Source: Deltaproteobacteria bacterium (GTDB taxonomy: Bacteria > Myxococcota_A > Polyangia > HGW-17). From it: DNA of 33,713 nucleotides. The notes beneath the pieces are model-generated. The model worked only from the letters and a program-made list of their open reading frames with translations. It was not told where the DNA came from and searched no databases. The position numbers and the translations under genes are program-made. Positions within the stretch are counted from its first letter, which is position 1. Every line of letters begins with the position of its first letter. The stretch lies in assembly GCA_027858615.1 (NCBI GenBank), contig JAQICJ010000294.1, positions 1 to 33,713 of the forward strand, written 5' to 3'. Of this stretch, positions 2,922-32,033 are shown piece by piece.

Positions 2922-3302
2922 ATGGCAGTAACAAAAGAACAAGTAATCGATTATCTCAGTAATATGACAGTCATGGATATGGCTGATCTGGTCAAGGAAC
3001 TGGAAGAAAAATGGGGAGTTGAAGCAGCTCCTGCAGTAATGGCCGGTGCAATGCCCGCCGCTGCTGATGATGGTGGAGAAGAAGAAGAAGAGCAGACTGA
3101 ATTTGATGTAGTTATCAAAGAAGTCGGCAAAAAGAAAATCAAAGTTATCAAAGCTATCCGTCAAATGACAAGTCTCGGCCTCAAAGAAGCCAAAAACATG
3201 GCTTCTGCTGATTCCGTGGTTAAAAGTGGAATCGCCAAAGAAGACGCTGAAAAGGCCAAAAAAGTACTTGAGGAGGCTGGCGCTACTGTAGAGCTTAAAT
3301 AA
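2922..3302 (+). CDS. rplL: 50S ribosomal protein L7/L12
   Basis: L12 is the multicopy stalk protein that recruits translation factors. The 126-residue product has an N-terminal dimerisation domain (residues 1-35), a short Ala/Glu hinge (MPAAADDGGEEEEEQ) and the C-terminal factor-binding domain from about residue 55. The strict IKAIR...LGLKEAK core is kept. The following segment reads MASADSVVKSGIAKEDA, where most families have a Val-Glu/Asp-x-x-Pro stretch, so the usual proline is missing. AGGAGG precedes the start. It is followed by an attenuator-like region before rpoB, as in many bacteria. Confidence 0.97.
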   Translation: MAVTKEQVIDYLSNMTVMDMADLVKELEEKWGVEAAPAVMAGAMPAAADDGGEEEEEQTEFDVVIKEVGKKKIKVIKAIRQMTSLGLKEAKNMASADSVVKSGIAKEDAEKAKKVLEEAGATVELK

Positions 3303-17907: not shown

Positions 17908-18306
17908 ATGTCTGCAAAAAATAAACATATAAGCAAAAGAACGCGTATCAAGGAAGACAGAGCTACCTATCCTCGTGCATCTTTGAACAATGTTCGCATT
18001 GCTCCCAGAAAAGCCAGGATTATTGCCAATATGATCAGAGGCAAAAATGTTGAAGAAGCCCTTTCTCTCTTGGCTTTTACCAATAAAAAAGCTGCAAAAT
18101 TGATCAAAAAGCTGCTTATGAGTGCAACTTATAATGCAGAAGAGTATTTTGATTTTGAGCCTGAAGATACATATATCAAGACTATCTATGTTGACGAAGG
18201 TCCTGTCATGAAGTGGAGAAGGCCGAGAGCCAGGGGCAGAGCATTCAGAATCAATAAAAGAACAAGTCATATCACTATAAAATTAGATTTACGAGAGAAT
18301 GAATAG
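17908..18306 (+). CDS. rplV: 50S ribosomal protein L22
   Basis: L22 reaches into the exit tunnel with a long beta-hairpin. The product is 132 residues, about 20 more than E. coli, with the extra residues in a basic N-terminal stretch (residues 1-25). The core starts near [33 protein letters not shown]. The tunnel hairpin is recognisable as [30 protein letters not shown] (about residues 92-123). GAGGAG precedes ATG 17908, which supports the long N-terminus. Confidence 0.96.
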
Positions 18307-19909: not shown

Positions 19910-20278
19910 ATGATCCAGATGCAAAGTGTACTGGATGTTGCTGATAACTCAGGTGCGAAAAAAGTTATGTGTATTAAAGTACCTGGCGGATCAAAAAGAA
20001 AATATGCATCCATTGGTGATGTTATAGTAGTGTCCGTCAAAGAAGCTATCCCGGCAGCCAAAGTAAAAAAAGGACAAGTATTAAAAGCAGTTATTGTAAG
20101 AACAGCTAAGGAAATAAACAGACGTGACGGCTCTTACATAAAATTTGACCGCAATGCTGCGGTTCTATTGAACGAAGTTCAGGAACCAATTGGAACCAGG
20201 ATTTTTGGTCCCGTTGCCAGAGAATTGAGAGCCAAGAAATTTATGAAGATAATTTCCCTGGCTCCGGAGGTGCTATGA
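19910..20278 (+). CDS. rplN: 50S ribosomal protein L14
   Basis: L14 lies at the subunit interface next to L19 and is the docking point for the silencing factor RsfS. The 122-residue product starts [24 protein letters not shown] and keeps [17 protein letters not shown], the [27 protein letters not shown] core and the terminal [23 protein letters not shown]. Length equals the family norm. GAGGTGA precedes the start, and its TGA stop overlaps the rplX start. Confidence 0.98.
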
Positions 20279-20643
20279 TGTTGGCAAGAATCAGAACAGG
20301 AGATACCGTCAAGGTTATATCTGGAAAATTCAAAGGTAAAGTTGGCAACGTTCTTAGAATACTCAAGAAAAAAAACAGAGTTATCGTGGAAGGTGTCAAT
20401 ATTCAGACTGTAAACCGCAAAGCCAGACAGGCTAATGAAAAAGGTGAGCAGGTAAAAAGAGAAGGCTCGATTCAAATTTCCAACGTAATGCCCATTGATC
20501 CGGTAACTAAAAAGTTTGTCGGAACCAAGGACGAGGCCACCAAAGTAAAAGGTGCCAGAGTTGGAACCAAGGTGCTTGAAGATGGCAGAAAAGTTAGAAT
20601 TGCCAAAAGCAGCGGTGAAGTAATCGAGGCTAAAAGCGAATAA
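20275..20643 (+). CDS. rplX: 50S ribosomal protein L24
   Basis: L24 is an assembly initiator protein near the tunnel exit with a KOW motif ([22 protein letters not shown], about residues 5-26). The product is 122 residues, longer than the E. coli 104. Many long L24 proteins carry two CxxC zinc pairs in the C-terminal half. Here the matching positions (DPVTKK and AKSSGEV) have no cysteine, so this is a zinc-free form. Two ATGs overlap the rplN stop (20275 and 20278). The second is seven bases from GGAGG and may be the true start. Confidence 0.95.
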
Positions 20644-23347: not shown

Positions 23348-23545
23348 ATGGCTACTTTTATAAAAATTAAACAGTTACACAGTACTATAAGTACACCTCC
23401 TGATATCAGAGCGACTATAAAAGGTCTCGGACTCAGAGGCCCTGGAAAAGAGAGAATCCTTAAAGATACTCATCAGATCAGAGGCATGATCAGAAAAGTG
23501 GCCCATCTGATAGAGATCGAACCCTGGGAAAAGGAAGGGAAATAG
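23348..23545 (+). CDS. rpmD: 50S ribosomal protein L30
   Basis: L30 is a small 50S protein absent from some lineages. The 65-residue product shows FIKIKQLHSTISTPPDIRATIKGLGLRGPGKE, where the family has a similar strand-helix-loop, and ends with the conserved IRGMIRKVAHLIEIE. Length is slightly above the E. coli 59. GTAGGAGA precedes ATG 23348. It lies between rpsE and rplO as usual, with only three bases before rplO. Confidence 0.95.
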   Translation: MATFIKIKQLHSTISTPPDIRATIKGLGLRGPGKERILKDTHQIRGMIRKVAHLIEIEPWEKEGK

Positions 23546-23548
23546 GGC

Positions 23549-24478
23549 ATGAATACTTTATCCAATCTCAAGAGAAGCAAAGGTTCTGTTAAAAACAGAA
23601 AAAGAAAAGGCAGAGGTCAGGGAAGTGGTCTCGGAGTTACTGCAGGAAGAGGAAATAATGGTCAGAAATCAAGAAGCGGTGGTTATATCCGACTTGGTTT
23701 CGAAGGTGGACAGATGCCATTGCAGCGCCGGGTTCCCAAAAGGGGATTCAACAATATTTTCCGTAAGGAATATTTTGTAGTTGATCTTGATTTTCTCGTC
23801 AGAAAATTTCCAGAGGGCGGACAAATAAACCTGTCGATTTTGAAAGATAAAGGTTTTTGTCATAATGTAGATCTTTTCAAAATTACCGGCAATGGCAAAC
23901 TTGGTGATGCCAAATACGATATTATTGTTGACTCAATCACCAAACCCGCCCAGGAAGCTATTGAAGCAAAAGGTGGTAAGGTCACTGTCAAAAAAACCAT
24001 CAACAATTATATGGAAGTATCACTTGCCAAATTGAATAAAAACTTCACCTCTGATAACGATGAAGTAAATATTACTTTTGAAGATATGAAAGCCAAGGGT
24101 CTCATACCTAAATCAAAATCAAAAGTGAGAATTACTTCTGTTGGTAGAATTAATAAAAAATTCAATGTTGAAGCACATCAGATTTCTCGCCAAGCTTATA
24201 CTACCATTAAAAAGAATGGTGGAAGCGTCAAATATCTTGAATCTACTAATCACATCCTTAAGGTCAATTTCAAAAAATTACAAAAATGGTTTCCTGCTGG
24301 GGGCAAAGTAAATCCTGAAGATCTCAAAAAATTGGGAGTACTGAAGGACAATCAGATTGTATCTCTGGTAAACAAAGGCCGGGTCAATTGTAAATTTGAA
24401 ATTCAGGTCCACAAAGCTTCCAAGTCAGCCAGACGTAAAATTGAAGCCAAAGGTGGAGAAGTTAATATTATCGAATAA
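23549..24478 (+). CDS. rplO: 50S ribosomal protein L15 with triplicated C-terminal domain
   Basis: L15 is a late 50S assembly protein with a glycine/arginine-rich N-terminal arm and a globular C-terminal domain. Residues 1-73 are a normal arm (GRGQGSGLGVTAGRGNNGQKSRSGG, then GFEGGQMPLQRRVPKRGF). Residues 74-149 are the normal C-terminal domain, ending AIEAKGGKVTVKK. The protein should stop near residue 150 but continues to 309. Residues 153-231 and 234-309 repeat the same domain, each with a leading V-x-L/F strand, a hydrophobic K-G-(F/L/V) turn, a positively charged middle and a terminal (I)-x-x-x-GG-x-V motif. All are in one open frame with no stop. It was probably built by duplication; the function of the extra domains is unknown. 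Confidence 0.95.
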   Translation: MNTLSNLKRSKGSVKNRKRKGRGQGSGLGVTAGRGNNGQKSRSGGYIRLGFEGGQMPLQRRVPKRGFNNIFRKEYFVVDLDFLVRKFPEGGQINLSILKDKGFCHNVDLFKITGNGKLGDAKYDIIVDSITKPAQEAIEAKGGKVTVKKTINNYMEVSLAKLNKNFTSDNDEVNITFEDMKAKGLIPKSKSKVRITSVGRINKKFNVEAHQISRQAYTTIKKNGGSVKYLESTNHILKVNFKKLQKWFPAGGKVNPEDLKKLGVLKDNQIVSLVNKGRVNCKFEIQVHKASKSARRKIEAKGGEVNIIE

Positions 24479-24520: not shown

Positions 24521-25834
24521 ATGCCAAGTGGATTCGGAAATATACATAAAATTCCAGAACTGAGAAAAAGACTCTTATTTACTTTGGGAATGCTGGCCAT
24601 TTTCAGAGTTGGAATCTTTGTAACCGTTCCTGGAGTTGATCGTAGTTTAATGGAACAGGTCATGTCAGGTGCATCCGGTACTTTTCTTGGTTTGTTCAAC
24701 ATGTTCAGTGGTGGTGCCCTTAAGCAGATGTCAATTTTTGCTCTGGGAATCATGCCTTACATCAGTTCCTCCATCATTACTCAATTGCTCACAGTGGTTG
24801 TGCCACATCTTGAACAATTGAAAAAAGAAGGAGAATCGGGCAATAAGAAAATTAACCAATATACCAGGTATGGTACAGTGGTTCTTTGTGTCATTCAGGG
24901 ATATTTTCTGGCAACCTGGTTTGAAAGTCAGAATCAGGCATATCCAGGAATGGTTATTAATCCTGGTCTTACTTTCAAGATAATGACTGTTCTTACCATG
25001 ACCGCCGGAACTATATTTATTATGTGGCTTGGTGAGCAGATCACCGAAAAAGGTGTTGGCAATGGTATCTCTCTTATTATCTTTGCTGGTATCGTAGCCA
25101 GAATGCCCGATGCTTTTATCCGTGTATATCAGCAATTCCGCAGTGGAGACATCGGAGTGCTCAATCTTGCCATTATTGTGGCTATAGCCGTAGGAGTCAT
25201 TGCTGTTATCACCTTCTTTGAAAGAGCCTACAGAAAGATTCCGGTCCAATATGCCAAAAGGGTGGTTGGACGCAGAATGTACGGTGGTACTTCTTCTCAC
25301 CTTCCCCTCAAGGTCAACATGGCCGGTGTAATTCCAGCAATTTTTGCTTCATCTTTACTGATGTTTCCTGCTCAAATTGCCAGTTTTACCCAAAGTACAT
25401 GGCTCAAAAATTTCCTTTCCCCAATATCAAATCCCATTGATTGGAGATACAACCTCCTGTACGTAACCTTGATCATTTTCTTTGCTTTCTTCTATACAGC
25501 AATAACTTTCAATCCTAAAGATGTTGCCGATAACATGAAAAAACAGGGTGGATTTGTTCCCGGGATCAGACCTGGTCAGAGAACAGCTGAATATATCGAC
25601 AAAGTATTAACCAGACTTACCTGGGGCGGGGCTATATATGTCGCTGCAGTATGTGTTCTTCCCAATTTATTGCGGGCACGTTTCAATGTTCCTTTCTATT
25701 TTGGGGGCACCAGTCTTCTGATTGTAGTAGGAGTTGCTCTTGATACAGTGCAGCAGATTGAGGGACATCTCATAACCAGACATTATGACGGCATTTCAGG
25801 ACCAAAAGGACCAAGAATCAGAGGAAGAGGTTAA
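24521..25834 (+). CDS. secY: Preprotein translocase subunit SecY
   Basis: SecY is the pore of the inner-membrane protein export channel. The 437-residue product shows about ten hydrophobic segments. Typical motifs include [27 protein letters not shown] at the N-terminus, [30 protein letters not shown] (about residues 60-90), [20 protein letters not shown] (about residue 260 onward) and [21 protein letters not shown]. The C-terminal tail ends GPRIRGRG. The ribosome binding site is weak. Its partner secE is at the start of this same window; adk follows after two bases. Confidence 0.98.
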
Positions 25835-28295: not shown

Positions 28296-28491
28296 TAATT
28301 ATCTTAGCGATGCTTTCAAAAATAACCTGATGGTTCTGAACTGGTTTTGTTAATTATAAATCCAACTTCTGTAATTTACCGGTTATTAGTTTTAAAGTAT
28401 TGTCAGGTAAATTATCCAAACAATTATTTGGTTTCACTTGGATTAATTGTTAATCAATTACATTAATTGGTGTCTGAAACAAGGAATTAAA
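28296..28491 (+). other. 196-base rpsK-rpoA gap, where rpsD is expected
   Basis: No gene or remnant of rpsD is readable in any frame. The sequence is strongly AT-rich with small inverted repeats, for example CCAAA/TTTGG at about 28417-28432 and GATTAA/TTAATC at about 28441-28455. A TTGTCA followed 17 bases later by ATTATT (about 28403-28431) is a weak promoter candidate for rpoA, not convincing by eye. Confidence 0.4.
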
Positions 28492-29598
28492 ATGGATGAA
28501 AACAAAGAAATGAATGAGCCCGGAATCGTGGATGCTCAGGAAAACAAAGAACAAATTGAAGAAGTCAATATTTATGACTGGATAGCCAAAAATTGGAGAG
28601 ATCTCATCAAACCAAAAACTATTCTGGTAGATGAAGATTCTCTTTCTGAAAAATATGGCAAGTTCACCTGTGAACCATTGGAAAGAGGCTACGGTACAAC
28701 TATTGGCAATACTTTGCGTCGGGTGCTGCTCTCTTCAATGCAGGGTGCTGCTATTACTTCGGTAAAAGTTAGCGGCGCCGTGCACGAGTTCACCAATATT
28801 CCCAATGTCGTCGAAGATCTGACTGATATTATTCTTAACCTCAAGGGTGTGCTTTTTAAAAAGAAAAATCCCAAACCAGTTGTTCTTCATATAGACGTCA
28901 GGGGCCCGGGTGAGGTAACTGCCAGTGATATCCAATTAGTAAATGAGATGGAAATCATGAATCCGGAACATCATATCTGTACATTGACAGAAGATGCTCA
29001 CTTTAAAATGCAGTTGGCTGTACAGACCGGAAGAGGTTATATTGGTGCCGAAGAACACAAGGATGAAACTCTTGGTGTTGGCAGTATTCCGATAGATGCA
29101 ATCTATTCCCCCATTAAAAAAGTTAATTTCCAGGTGAGAAATGCTCGCGTTGGTCAAAAAACAGACTTTGACAAACTGATTCTCGAAATATGGACTGACG
29201 GTACTGTTGATCCTCAGAATGCAGTTGCTTTTTCCGCCAAGATTTTCAAGGAACTAATGCAGATATTTATCAACTTCGAAGAGGAAGAAGAACCTCTTGA
29301 AGATGATGAGGGTGAAGAAGAAGAAGAAGTCAATCAATTCCTCTTCAAATCTGTTGATGAATTGGAATTGAGTGTGCGCTCCAGGAATTGTCTCCAGAAT
29401 GCAAACATCAATTATATTGGTCAATTAGCCCAAAAAACTGAATCTGACATGCTTAAAACCAAGAACTTCGGTCGAAAATCTCTCAAGGAGATCAAGGAAA
29501 TTCTTGCAGAAATGGGATTGACCTTAGGTATGCAGATTGACTGGTGGCCCATTGATCAGCCTCCGCCAAAACAATATATGAAAAAGAAGAAAAAATAA
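28492..29598 (+). CDS. rpoA: DNA-directed RNA polymerase subunit alpha with acidic N-terminal extension
   Basis: Alpha dimers nucleate polymerase assembly, and their C-terminal domains contact promoter DNA and activators. The product is 368 residues against about 330-345 in most bacteria. The normal start corresponds to NWRDLIKPK at residue 34, so residues 1-33 are extra and acidic. The N-terminal domain carries [32 protein letters not shown] glutamate-rich linker (about residues 262-284) leads to the C-terminal domain [19 protein letters not shown]...[18 protein letters not shown] 28492 follows AAGGA; no start codon lies nearer the core except M6. Confidence 0.97.
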
Positions 29599-30503: not shown

Positions 30504-32033
30504 ATGAAAAGATTATTAATTATGTTATTTGTTGTAGCTACCTTCGGTTTGGCCTCATGTCGAGACGACGACAATTCCAACAATTCCAACAACACCAACA
30601 ATACCAACAATACCAACAACACCAACAATCAAGATGGTGATACCATTGCCATGGTGCAAGATCCGAGTAACCCCAATTTTCTGAGTGATGGGGAAACAGT
30701 AAATCTTAAAAGTGTAGTTGTTACAGCTATAGATCGCTACGGCGATTATACCGGTTCTTTCTGGGTATCAGAAAATACAACTGCTCCTTATGAAGGAGTA
30801 GGTGTTTATAACTTTGACACTTCGGCTCAATGGTGGACAGATCTGCAATTGGGTGATTTAATCAATGTGACCGGCATAAAAACAGAATATAATTATAATG
30901 ATGAATTTGATGATGCTGTGACCCAGATTACAGAGCCGGTTGTTCAAAGACTTGGTACAGGTAATCCCATAGATCCTGTGTCCATCCAGGCAAGTGATCT
31001 GCTTACAGTTGAAGATGGTGAACAATGGGAAGGCGTACTGGTTACTCTTTCTAATGTCAGAGTAGGTGAAGTGGGCGAACGCGACGGCAGATATGAAGTA
31101 TCTTTATATCAAAGTACCAAAGCTCAGGATGATATGGCAGATCTTTCTTCCATCAATCAGGGTGAATGTCTCTCCAAATTTACTGGGATTGTAACCTACT
31201 TCTTCGGTTATTATCTTATGCCCAGAAGTGCTTCCGATATTGAAGTAGCAGCCGATGACAGTGCTTGTCCCACTGTTGCCAATGAAATCTGTGACAACGA
31301 GATCGATGACGACGGCAACGGATTTACCGATTGTGATGACTTTGCCTGCACAGGTGATCCTGCTTGTCCCGCCAAAGTTGAAAATACAGACGAACTTTGT
31401 GCTGACGGCAATGATAACGACGACGACGGTGTTGCTGATTGTGATGATCCTTCCTGTTATGGTCATCCCGATGTAACAATCTGTGTCGAAGAAAGTTGTA
31501 CAGACGAGGTCGACAATGACGGTGACGGCTATACTGACTGTGAAGATTTTGACTGTGCCCAGGATGTGGCTTGTGATGGTTCTTTTGAAACTAATTGCAC
31601 CGATGGTAACGATGACGACGGTGATACTTATTTTGATTGTGATGATATGGATTGTAACGATGATCCCGCTTGCATAGAAACAATTTGTGATGACGAAGTT
31701 GACAATGACGGCGACGAACATACTGACTGTGAAGATTTTGATTGCCTATACAGCGATGCAGCTTGTCAGGTGGATCAAGAAGTAACCGATGAACAATGCT
31801 CTGATGACACCGATAATGACGGCAACGGATTTACCGATTGTGAAGATTTCTCTTGTCAGAGAAGTCCTCTGACCACTATATGTGAAGGTAATGCAATTAC
31901 TTGTGCCGACGGTGTTGACAACAACGATAACGGCTTTGTTGATTGTGGCGATTTCGCCTGCAGATATTGCGATACAAACAATCCCGACAATAACCGGGTT
32001 GTTTCAACCTGTCCTCCCTGTTCCTCCAACTGA
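30504..32033 (+). CDS. Lipoprotein with OB-fold-like domain and seven Asp/Cys repeats
   Basis: No gene name can be given. The 509-residue product starts with a lipoprotein signal (MKRLLIMLFVVATFGLASC, lipid-modified C19), so it should be anchored to a membrane. Residues 20-43 are an Asp/Asn/Thr linker made by a 9-base DNA repeat. Residues about 65-248 resemble the OB-fold domain found in secreted nuclease-associated and other surface proteins (VVVTAIDRYGDYTGSFWVSE, GDLINVTGIKTEY). Residues 263-489 are seven repeats with regular C-x13-C-x4-C-x(2-8)-C spacing and acidic DNDGDGYTDC motifs that look calcium-binding, like repeats common in Myxococcota surface proteins. AAGGAG precedes ATG 30504. 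It is monocistronic between two terminators. No catalytic residues are recognised; adhesion or metal binding is only a guess. Confidence 0.85.
   Translation: MKRLLIMLFVVATFGLASCRDDDNSNNSNNTNNTNNTNNTNNQDGDTIAMVQDPSNPNFLSDGETVNLKSVVVTAIDRYGDYTGSFWVSENTTAPYEGVGVYNFDTSAQWWTDLQLGDLINVTGIKTEYNYNDEFDDAVTQITEPVVQRLGTGNPIDPVSIQASDLLTVEDGEQWEGVLVTLSNVRVGEVGERDGRYEVSLYQSTKAQDDMADLSSINQGECLSKFTGIVTYFFGYYLMPRSASDIEVAADDSACPTVANEICDNEIDDDGNGFTDCDDFACTGDPACPAKVENTDELCADGNDNDDDGVADCDDPSCYGHPDVTICVEESCTDEVDNDGDGYTDCEDFDCAQDVACDGSFETNCTDGNDDDGDTYFDCDDMDCNDDPACIETICDDEVDNDGDEHTDCEDFDCLYSDAACQVDQEVTDEQCSDDTDNDGNGFTDCEDFSCQRSPLTTICEGNAITCADGVDNNDNGFVDCGDFACRYCDTNNPDNNRVVSTCPPCSSN
30573..30626 (+). repeat. Six 9-bp tandem units encoding the Asn/Thr/Ser linker
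   Basis: Six head-to-tail copies of a 9-base unit (AAYWCCAAC-like: AATTCCAAC twice, then AACACCAAC, AATACCAAC twice, AACACCAAC) encode a run of Asn-Ser/Thr-Asn just after the lipid-modified cysteine. Units are multiples of three, so length change by slippage would keep the frame. Confidence 0.9.
31290..31970 (+). repeat. Seven protein repeats with four cysteines each
   Basis: First cysteines are at residues 263, 299, 332, 365, 395, 432 and 467. In every copy the second is exactly 14 and the third 19 residues later; only the fourth varies. Copies 1 and 6 share a DNA stretch (GACGGCAACGGATTTACCGA near 31312 and 31819), and copies 3 and 5 share another (ACTGACTGTGAAGATTTTGA), which fits relatively recent duplication or gene conversion. 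Confidence 0.88.

Follow-up and report, generated by a model that had tools for sequence, protein, structure and literature searches.

The universal ribosomal proteins are regarded as almost invariant and serve as phylogenetic markers. Bacterial uL15 (TIGR01071, PF00828) is ordinarily a protein of ∼145-200 residues in which an N-terminal arm is followed by one C-terminal domain, and a 2024 survey places uL15 among the proteins that develop no extensions (PMC11354259). The uL15 proteins of mitochondrial and chloroplast ribosomes (PDB 3j7y_M, 296 residues; 6ywe_J, 312 residues; 5mlc_N, 271 residues) are similar in total length to the protein described below, but each contains one matching stretch that comprises at most the arm and one C-terminal domain, and sequence comparison detected no domain repeat in these three chains. 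The initial annotation of the present locus knew of no described uL15 with tandem domains, which agrees with a search of open-access papers, where no earlier description of a tandem-domain L15 was found.

The window (the whole stretch of DNA analyzed, 33,713 nucleotides) carries an rplO gene that departs from this pattern (Table 1). Its frame is uninterrupted, with 309 codons and zero internal stops on translation, and starts three bases past the L30 stop codon, preceded by the purine-rich sequence GGAAGGG. Genomic neighborhood analysis places the gene between L30 and secY, the position of uL15 in the spc operon. The whole protein passes the rplO_bact TIGR01071 equivalog cut-off (195.6 versus 77.95 bits, NCBIfam), with three stretches matching the model, and PF00828 has no match in the 3.67-Mb genome beyond the three rplO domains. 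The 309-residue product is thus encoded by the sole uL15 gene of the assembly.

Table 1. Coordinates of the three-domain uL15 gene, its domains and neighbors in the window, and of the two-domain uL15 genes of group f35
Feature	Position	Strand	Remarks
rpmD (uL30)	23348..23545	+	Ordinary neighbor 5' of rplO, spc operon
rplO (uL15), three-domain form	23549..24478	+	309 aa plus stop; frame, Pfam, NCBIfam
rRNA-penetrating N-terminal arm (uL15), residues 1-73	23549..23767	+	Signature GRG-G-G...GFEGGQMPL-RR-PKRGF
C-terminal domain copy 1 (D1), residues 74-149	23768..23995	+	PF00828 at 23780-23986 (49.1 bits); AlphaFold2 elements 75-147
C-terminal domain copy 2 (D2), residues 153-231	24005..24241	+	PF00828 at 24014-24229 (52.1 bits); AlphaFold2 elements 154-229; D2 clade 97/82
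C-terminal domain copy 3 (D3), residues 234-309	24248..24475	+	PF00828 at 24263-24463 (59.5 bits); AlphaFold2 elements 236-307; D3 clade 99/97
secY	24521..25834	+	Ordinary neighbor 3' of rplO; relatives keep gene order
Two-domain uL15, G297	C28 35877-36302	-	Loci L174, L175 (with G292)
Two-domain uL15, G292	C391 1399-1836	+	Loci L174, L175 (with G297)

The N-terminal region is that of a canonical uL15. The glycine/arginine-rich arm ends in the signature by which members of the family are recognized and holds 22 of the 24 invariant columns common to ordinary L15 proteins in the alignment. No spacer separates D1 from the arm, which is also the case in ordinary L15, and linkers of a few residues each precede D2 and D3. 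All three PF00828 matches lie above the curated cut-off of 21.5 bits. In self-comparison, the local alignment scores are 50 for D1/D2 (z 5.8), 99 for D1/D3 (z 14.3) and 100 for D2/D3 (z 13.9), and none of 300 shuffles equaled any of them. D2 bears a small insertion past its first helix, and W247 is invariant in D3. Since an ordinary uL15 has exactly one C-terminal L15p/L18e domain and this protein has three, the rplO product represents a uL15 variant rather than an ordinary member.

Structurally, the three copies are alike. AlphaFold2 predicts the order strand-helix-strand-helix-strand-strand-helix-strand for D1, D2 and D3, with a pLDDT mostly between 80 and 93, and low confidence for the arm, as expected when it is modeled in isolation. 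D2 and D3 modeled alone adopt an unchanged fold, whose best PDB matches in Foldseek are bacterial uL15 chains (1.2-2 Å rmsd over 69-78 columns). The relative orientation of the domains is left unfixed by AlphaFold (pTM 0.43 and 0.51). The initial annotation had read the protein as an L15 whose C-terminal domain is followed by two further copies of itself; Pfam, self-alignment, the domain tree, AlphaFold and Foldseek all bear this out, including the resemblance of D1 to both later blocks and the predicted identity of their fold with that of the L15 C-terminal domain. The domain limits it gave, those of Table 1, lie within a few residues of the predicted secondary structure, and the three closing motifs it quoted (AIEAKGGKV, TIKKNGGSV and KIEAKGGEV) are present.

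The three-domain form is not confined to a single assembly. The GTDB order of the window comprises 13 genomes, of which eight belong to the window's family (f1), one to f3 and four to f2 and f4. Three C-terminal domains are found in all eight f1 genomes (four genera) and in G009, the sole f3 genome, so that the nine triplicated genomes span five genera; the frame has 310-316 codons in f1 and G009, except in G002 (f1), where it ends inside domain 3 at the contig end. The four f2 and f4 genomes all encode a single-domain L15. Among 290 genomes of the class, no three-domain L15 was found outside f1 and f3, the other members examined being single-domain. Across 379 sampled genomes of the phylum, the only other group that stands out is f35, a separate class, both of whose genomes (G292 and G297) encode a uL15 with two tandem L15 domains, the second copy of G292 being a weak match. 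A contig scan yielded 80 further loci that appear single-domain, 68 of which were measured (L15 frames of 119-217 codons). These surveys cover part of each group at E ≤ 0.001 per domain, and many of the genomes are incomplete.

Several other candidates for a tandem L15 were rejected. G109 and G558 each have two contigs with one PF00828 match apiece, and those of their copies that were examined are single-domain. The PF00828 matches of G212 and G676 lie on two different contigs, and the readable copy of G650 has one domain. In the phylum of G564 (197 genomes sampled), there is no multi-domain L15 among the matches listed; two genomes there have two matches, one of them on different contigs and the other with a readable copy that is single-domain.

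Phylogenetic analysis indicates that the extra domains arose before f1 and f3 diverged. In a tree of 65 domains, D1-D3 cluster together (97/87), apart from all single domains, and the D2 copies of the nine genomes make up one clade, as do the D3 copies, with the D1 of G009 basal on the drawn root. Each copy has evolved in place, with no sign of homogenization. A concatenated tree of 19 proteins recovers f3 as sister to f1 (100/100), with f2 and f4 outside. Because of these domain clades and the sisterhood of f3 and f1, the simplest history indicated by the trees is one triplication on the f1+f3 stem, before the family split. The f35 domains fall outside the D1-D3 clade, which favors an independent duplication; as the second copy in f35 is divergent, this independence is probable, short of proven.

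The additional copies are maintained by selection. dN/dS was compared for five close pairs in each of the four parts (arm, D1, D2 and D3) and lies between 0.00 and 0.25 in the 19 estimable pair-by-part comparisons; dS is saturated for D1 of G002/G005 and near or at saturation in some others, which makes those ratios rough. D2 and D3 are thereby shown to be under purifying selection. Mean identity between lineages is about 66% for the arm, 48% for D3, 40% for D1 and 39% for D2, making D3 the best conserved of the three copies. The net charge within the clade ranges from -4 to +1 for D1 (+1 in the window), from +2 to +9 for D2 and from +5 to +10 for D3, the domain of single-domain relatives spanning -3 to +7.

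Other proteins encoded in the window are also unusual. In the nine triplicated genomes, uL24 (20275-20643) is 122-129 residues long, versus 102-112 residues in the class members with which they were compared. An insertion around residues 80-91 of the window's protein is common to both triplicated families, f1 and f3, and missing in f2. uL22 (17908-18306) carries an N-terminal extension, PF00237 beginning at residue 24, and has 129-133 residues in the f1 genomes measured versus 103-121 elsewhere (in G009, 117-131 according to the start chosen); the lengths of both proteins rest on mechanically chosen starts. The hinge of bL12 (2922-3302) is unusually acidic, DDGGEEEEEQTE, and a long, very acidic linker joins the two domains of RpoA (28447-29598, 383 residues). 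Further downstream, 30504-32033 encodes a putative lipoprotein of 509 residues, without a Pfam match, in which D-x-D-G-x-x-D-C-like motifs recur and an Asn/Thr-rich tract lies close to the N-terminus.

The reading we favor, with moderate confidence, is that the protein is a genuine and sole uL15, enlarged by ancestral tandem triplication, whose D2 and D3 most likely brace the surface of the 50S subunit. Judging from its conservation, the arm would penetrate the core of the 23S rRNA in the usual bacterial manner, and D1, joined directly to it, would take or neighbor the canonical position. The likeliest place for D2 and D3 would be the surface of the 50S subunit, where they would probably clamp nearby 23S rRNA helices and/or ribosomal proteins and thus add a built-in assembly or stability brace. 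Both domains are basic, conserved, predicted to fold and tethered to a ribosomal arm, which suggests contact with rRNA. As the tandem domains are kept under selection in all nine sampled genomes, the ribosome of the f1+f3 lineage probably has two extra protein modules. Their location can be narrowed less than the initial annotation had proposed. The published contacts of uL15 cover 456 Å2 with uL4 and 838 Å2 with bL35, and the residues listed for them (Pro8; Arg50, Glu52, Pro63) fall in the N-terminal arm, outside the C-terminal domain (PMC4881015); a placement of the extra mass near L35/L4 is therefore not established.

A possible, if rather unlikely, alternative is compensation, in which the extra domains stand in for, or shore up, a lost or altered part of the 50S subunit, such as a shortened rRNA helix or a missing neighboring ribosomal protein. 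Other ribosomal proteins of the clade are indeed altered, uL24 and, in f1, uL22 being long. However, bL35, which forms the largest listed interface with uL15, is present in eight of the nine triplicated genomes and in each of the order's four single-domain genomes; uL4 and uL30 occur wherever the operon is covered. The one genome without bL35 is G002, a 77% complete MAG, so that loss of bL35 is not supported as the cause of the triplication. On the rRNA side, the Rfam LSU model matched nothing in the order's 13 genomes, and a sarcin-ricin pattern matched in three of them only, near contig starts, on just short 3' pieces of 23S.

The fold of the extra copies raises the prospect of a covalent eL18 mimic, D2 or D3 filling the eL18 site beside uL15 and the archaeal layout having been reached convergently by duplication. 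The fold class is identical (CATH 3.100.10, PMC11354259), and eL18 touches uL15 in eukaryotes (PMC7804294). Two plant 60S chains, 7qiw_S and 7qiw_c, match D2+D3 weakly (Foldseek E about 0.012-0.015) in a list dominated by L15 chains, and residues 197-232 give a weak NCBIfam L18e match (E 4.7e-7). Against this, the protein scores 29.5 bits with the L18e equivalog NF003079, whose cut-off is 85 bits, the domain tree derives D1-D3 from the bacterium's own L15, and bacterial 23S rRNA may have no eL18 binding site. We consider the mimic unlikely. Equally unlikely is the broader scenario that the clade rebuilt the surroundings of uL15 by covalently adding two modules resembling eL18, in an independent parallel to archaea and eukaryotes, together with the changes in uL24 and uL22, and that f35 arrived independently at a two-module version.

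The seat of the ancestral domain may itself have shifted, D3 of f1 having taken over the canonical contacts and D1 and D2 having become spacers or peripheral elements. D3 is the best conserved copy and the best PF00828 match in most f1 genomes; in f1 it is as a rule D3, rather than D1, that comes nearest to the consensus of the family, so that either copy may occupy the canonical seat. In f1, D1 has a longer branch than its G009 counterpart, and of the three copies it is the least basic. Yet it is D1 that adjoins the arm spacer-free, as in ordinary L15, and in G009 the best family match is D1 (66 bits); such a takeover appears doubtful.

A role outside the ribosome core, whether in docking, in autoregulatory RNA binding or as a source of separate proteins released by linker cleavage, would suit two basic domains that are well folded in prediction, but there is no gene duplication in trans, no cleavage motif was identified and retention in nine of nine genomes is explicable without it, so that this reading is very improbable. 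A neutral ratchet acting on a harmless duplication, or an assembly error at a repeat, is the least credible explanation of all: domain duplications can be neutral and the window's genome is fragmented (312 contigs), but the copies are highly diverged (mean identity of 39-48% between lineages), orthologous by position across nine separate genomes from five genera, which rules out an assembly artefact, and under purifying selection, no dN/dS near 1 being seen in D2 or D3.

Taken as an enlarged uL15 with a surface brace, the protein bears on how ribosomes grow. A conserved triplication and a second, probably independent duplication within the phylum suggest that the core set of the bacterial 50S subunit can grow by domain duplication. 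The clade offers a natural case for how ribosomes gain modules, a question usually approached through archaeal and eukaryotic additions. Extra L15 copies could also disturb the uL15 columns of concatenated marker alignments.

Compared with known systems, the protein shares the arm signature, the fold, the place in the spc operon and the sole-copy status of ordinary bacterial uL15, from which it differs in its length and in its three domains. S1, an OB-fold protein, is mobile and only loosely bound; it has no arm buried in the rRNA core and is not universal. Like the present uL15, bS1 is a ribosomal protein with a tandem domain in variable number (one to six S1 domains, PMC7432502). The f35 uL15 likewise carries tandem copies of the L15 domain after a normal arm, but two rather than three, and from outside the D1-D3 clade. 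eL18 has the same L15p/L18e fold as the predicted structures of D2 and D3; unlike these covalently attached domains, which descend from the bacterium's own L15, it is a separate protein. An additional module of the L15p/L18e fold beside uL15 would be a comparable solution, for which archaea and eukaryotes use a separate eL18.
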